Positions 21,110 to 35,676 of a stretch of 37,118 nucleotides of DNA are shown here, piece by piece. Under the pieces are notes generated by a model. That model saw only the letters and a program-made list of their open reading frames with translations. It had not been told where the DNA came from and did not search any database. Position 1 is the stretch's first letter; the number at the start of each line of letters is the position of its first letter. The DNA is from Deltaproteobacteria bacterium RIFCSPLOWO2_02_FULL_50_16 (GTDB lineage Bacteria > UBA10199 > 2-02-FULL-50-16): positions 1,515 through 38,632 of the forward strand of contig MGSF01000046.1 in assembly GCA_001798715.1 (NCBI GenBank), read 5' to 3'. The translations under genes and the position numbers were made by a program.

Positions 21110-21703
21110 TCAGGAGGGATGAATAAGGTTCATGAACTCTTCGCGGGTCTCATGACGATTGCGAAAGGCCCCCAGCATCGAACTCGTGACAACAGTGGAG
21201 CCTGATTTTTGAACGCCCCGCATCTGCATGCACAGATGCTCGGCCTGAATGACAACGGCCACCCCCAGCGGATCCAGGACCTTCATCAAGGTGTCGGCAA
21301 TCTGATTGGTCAGACGCTCCTGGACCTGGAGACGCCTTGAAAACATCTCGACCAGGCGCACAATCTTACTGATCCCCAATATTTTTGTGTTCGGGATATA
21401 GGCCACATGACATTTTCCGAAAAAGGGCAGGAGATGATGTTCGCACAAACTATAAAGGGAAATGTCCTTCATGGTGACCATCTCTTGGTGATCTTCGGTA
21501 AATAGAGCTCCATTGATGATCTCTTCCAGATTCTCCCGATATCCCTTGGTGAGAAAATGATAGGCATCGGCCACTCGTTCAGGCGTCTTTAAGAGGCCTT
21601 CACGTCCAGGATCCTCTCCAATTTCACGAAGAATCCCCCTGACATGCTCTTCCATGGGGATTTTTTGCTGATGGGCATCGATTTGATAGACCTTTTTGGA
21701 CAT
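21110..21703 (-). CDS. folE: GTP cyclohydrolase I
   Basis: [63 protein letters not shown]. Confidence 0.97.
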
Positions 21704-21758
21704 GTCTTTCTCCGGAGGAGAAACCCATGATGGTTTCTTCCTCCCATCACCTCTCCGG
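21704..21758 (-). promoter_or_regulatory. Candidate structured 5' leader of folE with alternative hairpins
   Basis: tttctcc-gga-ggagaaa (plus 21707-21723) contains the folE SD; the same bases can instead pair in ggagg.agaaacc...ggtttct.cctcc (21714-21744) or ccggag/ctccgg (21712-21717/21753-21758). Confidence 0.5.
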
Positions 21759-21768
21759 GGTTACAGGG

Positions 21769-21864
21769 TCCCAGCGCTCGCATCGCACCTCTGGTGTTCC
21801 AGGCGCACCCGAGCTCTGCAAGGGTGCTGTCGCTGGGATACATTGTCCCGACGTTGTCGGGACA
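21769..21864. repeat. Intergenic palindromic repeat copy (same core module as the in-frame inserts) plus adjacent hairpin
   Basis: tcccagcg/cgctggga outer stem (21769-21776/21831-21838) around catcgcacctctggtgttccagg...gagctctg; then tgtcccgac-gtt-gtcgggaca (21844-21864). Confidence 0.75.
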
Positions 21865-32438: not shown

Positions 32439-33608
32439 ATGATGGACAAGACACAAAAATATATCGGCTGGGCCTGTACCTACACCCCCCTTCCCCTCAT
32501 CGAGGCCTCAGGATTCACTCCTTATCGCCTCCTCCCCACAACCCAGGCCCCTGATCGTTCAGGACATAAGCTTCACGACAATCTATGTCCCCATATCAAA
32601 AAAATCCTTGATCGAGCCCTCGATAACGATCTGCCTCCACTGGCCGGAATCGTTTTTGTTAATAGCTGCGATGCCATGCACCGACTGGCGGACGCCTGGA
32701 ATCAAGTACGCCCTCATGATAACACCATTCTCATTGATCTCCCAATCGCACCTCCGGTGCTCCAGGGTCCCGGAGCTCTGTCGACGGGGCCCATCGCACC
32801 TCCGGTGCTCCAGGGTCCCGGAGCTCTGTCGACGGGGCCCATCGCCAATGACGAAAAATCCGTCGACTTTTTGAGCCAGGAATTTTCCAAACTCTCCCAG
32901 ACCCTTGCAGAATGGTCGGGAGAGACCCCCACAAAGGCAGCCACCCAAGAAGGCCTGTCGCACTATCACGAGATTTATAACCTTCTCGATGAAATTAAAA
33001 ATCACCACATCAAGGGTACCCTCAACAAAGGGGGGGCCTTTATGCAAGACCTCTACAATCAAGCGGCCACACAGTCCTCCACTCAAACCCTAGAATCCCT
33101 TAAAAAATGCCTCGCCTCCTTCCAAGAGACTCCTTCCCTTCATAAAGGTATCCCCCTCTTTCTTTTTGGAAATGTCCTCCCAGACCCCGAGGCCTTTTCA
33201 CTTTTTGAATCCTGCGGGGCTTACATCGTTGCCGATAATCTTTGTACCGGTTTTCGCCAATTTGCCGCCTACGACAAGATCCCGCCAGGTCTCAACAATG
33301 ATCAAGATGTTTTTGCCTTCCTGGCTCGCTCTCTCCTCATGCGAACCCCCTGTGCCCGTACATTTGATCCCCAAAAACCCCTTTATATCGCCGATCAGCT
33401 TTTGGCCGAGGCCAGGTCTTATGGGGTTCGGGGCGCCATTGGACACACGGTCAAGTTTTGCGATCCCTATTTGGCCCGACTTCCCATAATACGAGAGGTC
33501 TTTAAAAAGGCAAAAATGCCCCTCCTCCTCCTTGAGGGAGACTGTACGTTGCGCTCGATGGGTCAGCACCGCACACGTATTGAGGCTTTTGTTGAAATGT
33601 TGGGGTAA
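32439..33608 (+). CDS. 2-hydroxyacyl-CoA dehydratase / benzoyl-CoA reductase-type subunit (HgdB/BcrB/C-like) carrying an in-frame tandem repeat insertion
   Basis: GIVFVNSCDAMHRLADAWNQ, IADQLLAEARSYGVRGAIGHTVKFCDPYLARLPIIREVFKKAKMPLLLLEGDCT; neighbours a paralogue and an activase. Confidence 0.85.
   Translation: MMDKTQKYIGWACTYTPLPLIEASGFTPYRLLPTTQAPDRSGHKLHDNLCPHIKKILDRALDNDLPPLAGIVFVNSCDAMHRLADAWNQVRPHDNTILIDLPIAPPVLQGPGALSTGPIAPPVLQGPGALSTGPIANDEKSVDFLSQEFSKLSQTLAEWSGETPTKAATQEGLSHYHEIYNLLDEIKNHHIKGTLNKGGAFMQDLYNQAATQSSTQTLESLKKCLASFQETPSLHKGIPLFLFGNVLPDPEAFSLFESCGAYIVADNLCTGFRQFAAYDKIPPGLNNDQDVFAFLARSLLMRTPCARTFDPQKPLYIADQLLAEARSYGVRGAIGHTVKFCDPYLARLPIIREVFKKAKMPLLLLEGDCTLRSMGQHRTRIEAFVEMLG
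32745..32840 (+). repeat. 48-bp palindromic module, two exact tandem copies, in frame inside a dehydratase-subunit gene
   Basis: atcgcacctccggtgctccagggtcccggagctctgtcgacggggccc at 32745-32792 and 32793-32840; encodes IAPPVLQGPGALSTGP twice. Confidence 0.95.
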
Positions 33609-33614
33609 AACTTT

Positions 33615-34883
33615 ATGATTTCACAATATTTTGATTCTCTCATCAGCGGCATTGAGGCCAAGATAAAGGAAGATCCCAAGGCCTTTCATCCCCGCAAAAA
33701 ATACACCCTTGAGGTGGCCCGACTGGGAAAAAGACTCTATGCCCGAGAAGGGCCCATCGCATCTCCGATGCTTCAGGGTCCCGGAGCCCTGCCGACGGGG
33801 CCTATCGCTCTCTGTGGCGTCACGACCCCCTTTGACCTCCTGAATGCCATGGGAGTCACCTCCTGTTTTGTCGAATTCATTGGGGCCCTATTGGCCTCAA
33901 GCGGAACCGTCGCCCCCTTTCTTGAAAAGGCCGAGCATTCAGGTTACGCCTCGGATTCCTGCGGCTATCATCGGGCCGTCCTCGGGGCCTCACAAGAGGG
34001 GCTGATGCCCCATCCCGACTTCCTGATCGCCACCTCCTGCCCCTGTAGCGGGGGATTGGCGACGATGGAAAACCTCGCCCATCACTATAAAAAAGACCTC
34101 TTTCTTCTTCATATCCCACAGGACCTGTCAAAAAAGAATGTAGATTATTTGGCCCGGCAAATCATGGAAATGGAAACCTTCGTGACCCGGCACACAGGTC
34201 GCCCCCTTGATCCTGATCGTCTCCTAAAAGTCATCGAAAAGACCAATCAGGCCCGGGAACTGATGGTCGAGATCTATCACCTTGCCCAGCACATCCCCTC
34301 CCCCAATAGTGGCAAGGAACTGGGAAACTTTGCTATTGTCATGGCCTTATTATTGGGGACGGACGCCGCCATTGATGTCACCAGGGCCTATCGTGATGAA
34401 TTTGCCGCAAGACTCCATGCGGGGTCTAGCGGTGTCCCTCAAGAACGCCTGCGCCTCATGTGGATTCAGAATCGTATCCAATTCAAAAATTCAATCATCC
34501 CAGATCTGGAAAAAAATTATCAGGCCTCCGTCATCGTCGATGAACTCAATAGCATGACCTGGGATCCCATTGATCCTCATGATCCTTATGTGGGTTTTGC
34601 CGAAAGGGCCATTTCCATTCCTTTCAATGGTGGCGTAGAACGACGTGTCCAGCATCTCAAGAAATTGGCCCAAGATTATAAAATCGACGGGGCCATCAAT
34701 CCCTGTCACTGGGGATGCCGGCAAGGAACGGGGGCGAGGGGCTTGATCGAGGAGGGTCTTAAAGAAATCGGGGTTCCTGTCCTCAATCTGGAAGTGGATT
34801 GTGTCGATACAAGGAATTATGCCGAGGGACAGCTGAAGACGCGGCTGGGGGCTTTTTTCGAAATGCTGCATAGTCGCCATTAG
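33615..34883 (+). CDS. 2-hydroxyacyl-CoA dehydratase / benzoyl-CoA reductase-type subunit with one in-frame repeat insertion
   Basis: ALCGVTTPFDLLNAMGVTSCFVEFIGALLAS, SYxCGYHRAVLG-like segment, ATSCPCSGG, GAINPCHWGCRQG. Confidence 0.85.
   Translation: MISQYFDSLISGIEAKIKEDPKAFHPRKKYTLEVARLGKRLYAREGPIASPMLQGPGALPTGPIALCGVTTPFDLLNAMGVTSCFVEFIGALLASSGTVAPFLEKAEHSGYASDSCGYHRAVLGASQEGLMPHPDFLIATSCPCSGGLATMENLAHHYKKDLFLLHIPQDLSKKNVDYLARQIMEMETFVTRHTGRPLDPDRLLKVIEKTNQARELMVEIYHLAQHIPSPNSGKELGNFAIVMALLLGTDAAIDVTRAYRDEFAARLHAGSSGVPQERLRLMWIQNRIQFKNSIIPDLEKNYQASVIVDELNSMTWDPIDPHDPYVGFAERAISIPFNGGVERRVQHLKKLAQDYKIDGAINPCHWGCRQGTGARGLIEEGLKEIGVPVLNLEVDCVDTRNYAEGQLKTRLGAFFEMLHSRH
33756..33803 (+). repeat. 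Diverged single copy of the 48-bp palindromic module, in frame
   Basis: atcgcatctccgatgcttcagggtcccggagccctgccgacggggcct; encodes IASPMLQGPGALPTGP. Confidence 0.93.
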
Positions 34884-34890
34884 AAATTTT

Positions 34891-35676
34891 ATGTACTATC
34901 TGGGTATCGACATAGGCAGTCTTTCCTGCGACGCCGTCTTAATCGACCATGAGAATAAAATCATGGCCTCTTCCGTCGTTCCTACCGGTGCACAGAACCG
35001 CATCGCCATTGAGCGCGCCACTCAAGAGGTCTTCAAAACGGCCCACATCACACCCAAAGACGTCAAGGCCACTGTGTCAACGGGATATGGACGTGACCGT
35101 GTGGAGGAACGTCTGGCCGCTGTCACGGAAATCACCTGTCATGCCCGCGGTATACGGCACCTGTTGCCAAAAACAAATGTGCTCATCGACATCGGGGGAC
35201 AAGACAGTAAGACGATTCGAATCGACGACAATTCTCTCGTTGTCGATTTTGCCATGAATGATAAATGCGCCGCGGGCACGGGGCGCTTTTTGGAGGCCAT
35301 GGCCCGGGCCCTACAAGTCGATATCGAGGAATTGGCCAAACTGGATCACGGGGCCTCCGGCCATGTCACCTTAAGCAGTATGTGTACCGTTTTCGCTGAA
35401 AGTGAAGTGGTGTCCCTTATTGCCGATGGTATCTCTCCCCATGAAATTGTTCACGGGCTCAATCGAGCGATTGCGACCCGTATTTTGGGTCTTGTCCATC
35501 GTGTAGCCCCCAGCATCAATGGTCTTTCGGTGGCCATGTCAGGGGGGGTAGCCCATAATAGTGGAGTCATTCGTGCCTTAAGCGAAGGTCTCAATTGCGA
35601 AATCTTGGTTCCACCTCGGCCCGATACGGTGGGGGCCCTCGGGGCCGCACTCATCGCCCGCGAAAGGGACAGTTGA
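34891..35676 (+). CDS. BadF/BadG/BcrA/BcrD (HgdC)-family ATPase, dehydratase/reductase activase
   Basis: YYLGIDIGSLSCDAVLID, DIGGQDSKTIRID, NDKCAAGTGRFLE, MSGGVAHNSGV. Confidence 0.93.
   Translation: MYYLGIDIGSLSCDAVLIDHENKIMASSVVPTGAQNRIAIERATQEVFKTAHITPKDVKATVSTGYGRDRVEERLAAVTEITCHARGIRHLLPKTNVLIDIGGQDSKTIRIDDNSLVVDFAMNDKCAAGTGRFLEAMARALQVDIEELAKLDHGASGHVTLSSMCTVFAESEVVSLIADGISPHEIVHGLNRAIATRILGLVHRVAPSINGLSVAMSGGVAHNSGVIRALSEGLNCEILVPPRPDTVGALGAALIARERDS

Follow-up and report, generated by a model that had tools for sequence, protein, structure and literature searches.

A 48-bp palindromic repeat found in frame in both subunit genes of a predicted acyl-CoA dehydratase and dispersed through a deltaproteobacterial genome

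Palindromic repeats that lie between genes and also, in frame, within many conserved genes have been described in Rickettsia (RPE) and Wolbachia (WPE) (PMC2229807, PMC3767692). The intragenic REP elements, which carry GTAG or CGTC tags, are short hairpins that are mostly intergenic, although some of them occur in frame in repair or metabolic genes and some are clustered (PMC3733652). In the mitochondria of nematomorphs, coding palindromes keep their hairpins while their arms evolve in concert, for which template switching has been proposed (PMC6649704). Here we describe a palindromic repeat in a 37,118-nucleotide stretch, hereafter the window, of contig MGSF01000046.1 (positions 1,515 to 38,632) of Deltaproteobacteria bacterium RIFCSPLOWO2_02_FULL_50_16. 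When compared with the open-access literature, this element is of the RPE-like kind, yet it is neither an RPE by unit length nor a GTAG/CGTC REP.

The genes in which the element was noticed form an operon whose sequence predicts a 2-hydroxyacyl-CoA dehydratase/benzoyl-CoA reductase type of system (Table 1). A 48-nt insert of 16 codons occupies window positions 33756-33803 inside the HgdA-like gene and keeps its frame. The earlier note had presented it as a separate, diverged copy of the repeat in the adjoining subunit gene, with coordinates and sequence that are right, and its nature as an insertion is shown by homologues without the 16 codons: in an alignment with the HgdA homologues of two genomes of the same class (56-59% identity), the gap comprises exactly 16 amino acids at the repeat. 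Similarly, the HgdB homologue of G003 aligns without both tandem copies. As the same note had observed, the fourth pair of hairpin 1 differs on both sides of the stem, being T:A in the HgdA copy (GCATC TCC GATGC) and C:G in the HgdB copies (GCACC TCC GGTGC).

Table 1. Element copies and host genes in the window (window coordinates)
Feature	Position	Strand	Basis
HgdB/BcrC-like subunit, PF06050, host gene	32439..33608	+	
HgdB-like gene, 48-nt tandem copy 1 of 2, starting directly after CTC	32742..32791	+	63.4 bits
HgdB-like gene, tandem copy 2 of 2	32790..32839	+	70.9 bits, the best match of the genome; insert missing from the G003 homologue
HgdA/BcrB-like subunit, PF06050, host gene	33615..34883	+	
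Palindromic element copy in the HgdA-like gene, in frame	33753..33802	+	covariance model match, 65.8 bits; exact 16-aa gap against the G003 and G044 homologues
HgdA copy, basal stem	CCC 33753-33755 / GGG 33776-33778	+	
HgdA copy, hairpin 1	GCATC 33759-33763, loop TCC, GATGC 33767-33771	+	
HgdA copy, hairpin 2, decayed	around loop 33787-33792	+	
Acyl-CoA dehydratase activase, third gene of the operon, without element	34891..35676	+	TIGR00241, 236 bits
Intergenic copy upstream of folE: outer element with a second element nested in its loop	21743..21838	+	hairpin 2 arms 21769-21776 / 21831-21838; covariance model match 21779-21829
48-bp element nested in the outer element's loop at CTC^TG, target not duplicated	21780..21827	+	sequence

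The two dehydratase subunit genes carry separate insertions of different subtypes. The alternative that gene conversion between the neighbouring subunit genes carried one insertion to both, as had been proposed, is very improbable: the HgdA and HgdB copies are indeed close neighbours (45/50 positions identical), but the copies in the TlyA, NirB and apgM genes are nearly as near (41-47/50), the HgdA and HgdB copies lie at unrelated positions in their genes between non-homologous flanks, and the family is genome-wide. In addition, the HgdA copy is a mosaic, its hairpin 1 being identical over 24/24 nt to that of a non-coding copy on another contig (C52), while the nearest relative of its hairpin 2 is that of HgdB. 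Nothing indicates that the inserts serve the dehydratase enzyme.

The genome, a MAG of 1.73 Mb, was surveyed over 1,734,556 bases minus 53. It contains 13 BLAST matches, with E values down to 1e-22 beyond the dehydratase locus, and an iterated nhmmer profile yielded 50 copies in 42 clusters, a repeat family far beyond chance and in agreement with the active spread that had been suggested from the two subunit genes. According to a codon-usage model of coding status, 18 clusters are located in frame within genes, 23 lie between genes, in some cases in tRNA spacers, and the remaining one extends across a gene end; random insertion into this genome, about 90% of which is coding, would be expected to place about 38 of the 42 clusters in genes. 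No copy that clearly breaks a frame was seen among the 42 clusters. A special tie to one enzyme complex is not supported at this scale, nearly all of the 18 in-frame places being in unrelated genes: the hosts include ClpB, UvrC, RlmN, RibE, TlyA, a NirB-like nitrite reductase, acetyl-CoA synthetase (Acs), aconitase, NuoF and agmatine deiminase, as well as apgM, a MetH activation domain, a histone-deacetylase-like protein and TPR proteins. As in RPE and WPE, with which it was compared by description rather than by sequence, the element is thus dispersed in intergenic DNA and present in frame in many unrelated genes, core genes among them, where the palindromes appear to be tolerated.

Homologues lacking the insert were found for HgdA, ClpB, TlyA, UvrC and RlmN, and the measured net insertions in genes are multiples of three. 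When ClpB is aligned with the solved E. coli protein, a gap of 16 aa opens immediately before the Walker B strand (a predicted tryptic peptide bearing the insert is ...AIAQTEGPSPLR). TlyA has gained 16 aa, UvrC has 22 aa more than 21 homologues, and RibE has about 20 aa extra. In RlmN, about 61 extra aa just before the CxxxCxxC motif correspond to three element copies, nested or adjacent and in both orientations (G000 C63:15954-16122, L015). The domains around the inserts are intact in ClpB, TlyA, UvrC, RlmN and RibE. In the agmatine deiminase gene (G000 C65:14566, L084), the loop of the element's hairpin 1 is interrupted at CTC^ by 21 nt that contain two mini-hairpins, a different and smaller kind of module.

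All six frames are used among the 23 genic copies, of which 10 have sense and 13 antisense orientation, and the peptides that the element encodes in its six frames are unrelated to each other, so that no shared peptide is selected. Hence, the idea that selection favours the peptide PIAPPVLQGPGALSTG for a function, such as that of an interaction or linker segment, is hardly credible; the open frames and the retention in enzymes agree with it, but the six different frames contradict it in general, leaving room for a peptide function in an individual gene. We also considered whether the element is selected to have open frames and rejected this, because the mean number of frames open per element (4.35) is nothing special when compared with that in composition shuffles (4.26).

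A covariance model of 50 positions describes the fold of the element as a 3-bp basal stem, a 5-bp hairpin 1 with a TCY loop and a hairpin 2 with a TCT or CTCTGY loop, the two hairpins being in direct order. The covariation that the earlier note had read from a few copies was observed over many: the paired cells of hairpin 1 reach 98.6% in the own genome and 99.1% in the copies from Elusimicrobia described below, none of 500 shuffles being as high and versions with slid stem positions likewise lower, controls that do not fully remove the relatedness among copies. All four pair types occur at the third pair of hairpin 1, the basal stem, which is included in the covariation, exists as CCC/GGG, CGC/GCG, CAC/GTG and CCT/AGG, and hairpin 2 keeps its pairing through 30 arm/loop sequence types. 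The second stem of the earlier note (GCTYC/GGAGC) is present in the dehydratase copies and is not conserved in the family, its cells being paired at 65.5% against 65.3% in shuffles; it competes with hairpin 1 for two bases.

One reading of this covariation is that the hairpin is a selected RNA structure in these mRNAs, regulatory or involved in processing, with compensatory changes after insertion. This appears improbable. In its favour, the coding copies also covary strongly in hairpin 1 (101/105 Watson-Crick cells against a shuffled mean of 86) and the tandem HgdB copies fold with z = -2.3 against shuffles; however, the single HgdA copy folds no better than shuffles (z = -0.7), hairpin 2 is weaker in coding than in non-coding copies (4.8 versus 6.5), the copies lie in both orientations in functionally unrelated hosts, and arms have changed en bloc in non-coding copies. 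A known RNA family was likewise discarded, as the window segment 32600-33900 gave no Rfam match at E<=1.

The en-bloc change is best seen in two non-coding copies, C72:3168 and C56:2306, which match almost completely for more than 100 bp and differ in hairpin 1 at 5/9 nt (the loop and two complete base pairs, with both partners changed) but at 1/58 of the other core positions. Both belong to an intergenic subfamily of about 130 bp (AAAGCCG-element-GGCTCAAGAAAAATT) with a fixed hairpin 2 (CTCAAGCC TCT GGCTTGAG), of which other members in G000 are C81:20930, C31:6117, C62:35803, C41, C83, C52:20078 and C45:74508; some members share long flanks. Such an exchange of both arms suggests that conversion, module exchange or template switching was at work, any of which would produce it without selection. 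Covariation is accordingly evidence that a palindrome is kept, and not of selection for it by these genes, which removes the step from covariation to selection at the gene that had been taken earlier. The earlier view that the hairpin, and not one peptide alone, is constrained or maintained stands in so far as all six frames are used and covariation is strong over about 90 copies, but selection on the hairpin within a gene does not follow from it. It is possible that the covariation arises mainly at the DNA level, where quasi-palindromes would undergo arm conversion or template switching with no selection on the fold, and that dispersal is ordinary transposition: near-identical copies have exchanged both arms in one step, 30 arm types surround an invariant loop, and template switching is documented to create compensatory changes in RNA genes and hairpins (PMC8794818). 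On the other hand, conversion alone leaves unexplained that the loop, the linkers and the spacing are kept across both phyla. This process is compatible with a mobile element and fits inside that explanation as a sub-mechanism.

Insertion of the element can be followed where copies are nested. In the intergenic copy upstream of folE, the arms of the outer element are complementary at 8/8 positions and stand 54 nt apart, that is, a 6-nt loop plus 48 nt, and the same exact 48-nt nesting was found at C86, at C13 (within NirB) and at C63, there in a hairpin 1 loop within RlmN. The nested insertions, whose lengths were counted on the sequence, are always at CTC^YG and do not duplicate the target; direct repeats are present at genic sites and may be element sequence. 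CTC stands directly to the left of the element in 14/45 copies of the own genome and in 30/43 copies of Elusimicrobia, against a background of 1.8%, and in the own genome this may partly reflect nesting in older copies. A stem test on nested flanks was modestly above the null (3/45 versus 1%; 4/42 versus 2.8%). Other palindromes occur in the same DNA. Tri-loop hairpins lie beside the nested element at window positions 21701-21729 and 21844-21864 (TTTCTCC GGA GGAGAAA; TGTCCCGAC GTT GTCGGGACA), and hairpins of the TTTCTCC/GGAGAAA type recur genome-wide, several of them close upstream of ATG as if overlapping ribosome-binding sites. An unrelated repeat, a perfect 22-bp palindrome around GAA (AAATCCCCCTAAACCCCCCTTT), is present at G000 C27:2557.

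An exact-pattern scan over 84,980 species genomes matched two Elusimicrobia MAGs from groundwater, besides one chance site; the pattern match in Aeromicrobium (L144) was dismissed as chance, having no covariance model match. With the covariance model, 35 copies were detected in each of the two Elusimicrobia MAGs, at least 12 in a third (G661) and one or two in two others, and no copies in 384 other genomes, 45 of them of the own class, a search in which the best candidates per genome were scored and weak families could be missed. The in-frame hosts in Elusimicrobia are Lon, RpoN, adenosine-deaminase-like and epimerase-like genes, and the Lon insert, of about 31 aa net, is missing from the 70%-identical Lon of G060. 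In G061 (L151), a GltD-like N-terminus carries a different palindromic insert with a 12-bp direct repeat (GATCGTGGCCGC) on its flanks. The own phylum is not Elusimicrobiota, because the kinship list passes from the same class directly to the same domain after 45 genomes, with the phylum of G060 taking in more than 295 genomes, and because UvrC is 37% identical, compared with 43-53% among members of the own class. The element is therefore common to two phyla, by transfer or from a common source. This distribution also bears on an assembly artefact or contamination, which is highly unlikely: the genome is a MAG with N gaps and the AcnA copy (C13:16009) adjoins one, but all clearly genic copies are in frame with measured lengths in multiples of three, and three more MAGs from another phylum show the same pattern with their own subtypes of the element.

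The element was compared with several described systems. Unlike RPE and WPE, whose units measure 105-146 bp, it has a 48-bp unit with two hairpins in direct order, is read in all six frames, inserts into its own loops and resides in two other phyla; a Rickettsia RPE proper was rejected, since nested and genic insertions give a unit of 48 bp instead of 100-150 bp. As with the intragenic REPs a uvr gene is hit, here uvrC, but the element consists of two different hairpins, not REP dimers, GTAG and CGTC tags at its ends occur in 1/50 and 3/50 copies, not above chance, and a RAYT neighbour was not found among those checked, so that REP identity was not upheld. The element resembles MITEs (ERIC/RU-1, the 107-bp form of Correia/NEMIS) in being a short non-autonomous repeat, and some MITE families form intragenic in-frame fusions; a long terminal inverted repeat and, at nested sites, a target duplication were not seen. 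It shares with the nematomorph coding palindromes the hairpins kept in coding sequence and the arms evolving in concert, although the latter are built from the host gene itself and not from a dispersed insert. In single-stranded DNA transposition of the IS200/IS605 (HUH) type, elements with hairpin-bearing ends insert next to a short motif without target duplication. The hairpins, the frequent CTC and the clean nested sites may be comparable here, as an analogy only; no linked Y1 transposase was found among those checked. Y1/RAYT-type transposases do occur in the element-rich genomes, with no element near those checked, and the ends of the Y1_Tnp of the own genome are unrelated to the element; mobilisation by a RAYT was accordingly not retained for the transposases checked. 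A lone, RAYT-like Y1_Tnp of 328 aa (G000 C87:3991-4977, L106; ends AGGGGTCAG...) is inserted in a gene, the 3' end of which occurs again beyond the insertion. As to a vector, neither the 50,697 phage records nor the 72,556 plasmid records that were searched gave a match, and an exact-pattern search of IMG/VR gave none either.

These results are probably explained by a dispersed, non-autonomous palindromic mobile element of RPE-like, loop-targeting kind with a unit of about 48 bp, for which we infer the inserting enzyme and the insertion step. A putative trans-acting enzyme would recognise the folded single strand and insert it after CTC, preferably in hairpin loops. Because the unit comprises 16 codons and is GC-rich, with 4.3 of six frames open on average, many genic insertions would leave the frame intact, and purifying selection would remove the others, leaving only frame-keeping insertions in genes. 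The arms might stay complementary through conversion, module exchange or template switching among copies, whether or not selection for mobilisation contributes. More tentatively, the element may stand for a distinct class of mobile palindromes that are recognised as single strands, insert preferentially into hairpin loops, among them their own at CTC^YG, change both arms en bloc, measure exactly 16 codons so as to pass through genes and have moved between phyla.

In-frame palindromes in core genes are familiar chiefly from Rickettsia and Wolbachia, in which they are often attributed to an intracellular life and to the decay of the genome, and from intragenic REPs. The occurrence of a 48-bp version in two unrelated phyla, in genes such as ClpB, UvrC, Lon, RlmN and RpoN, suggests that an intracellular lifestyle is apparently not needed. 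The exact empty sites of the nested copies and the clear exchange of arms make this a clean system for the question of how such elements move and for that of covariation versus selection, and the element copies would provide a natural collection of enzymes with apparently tolerated insertions of 16 residues.
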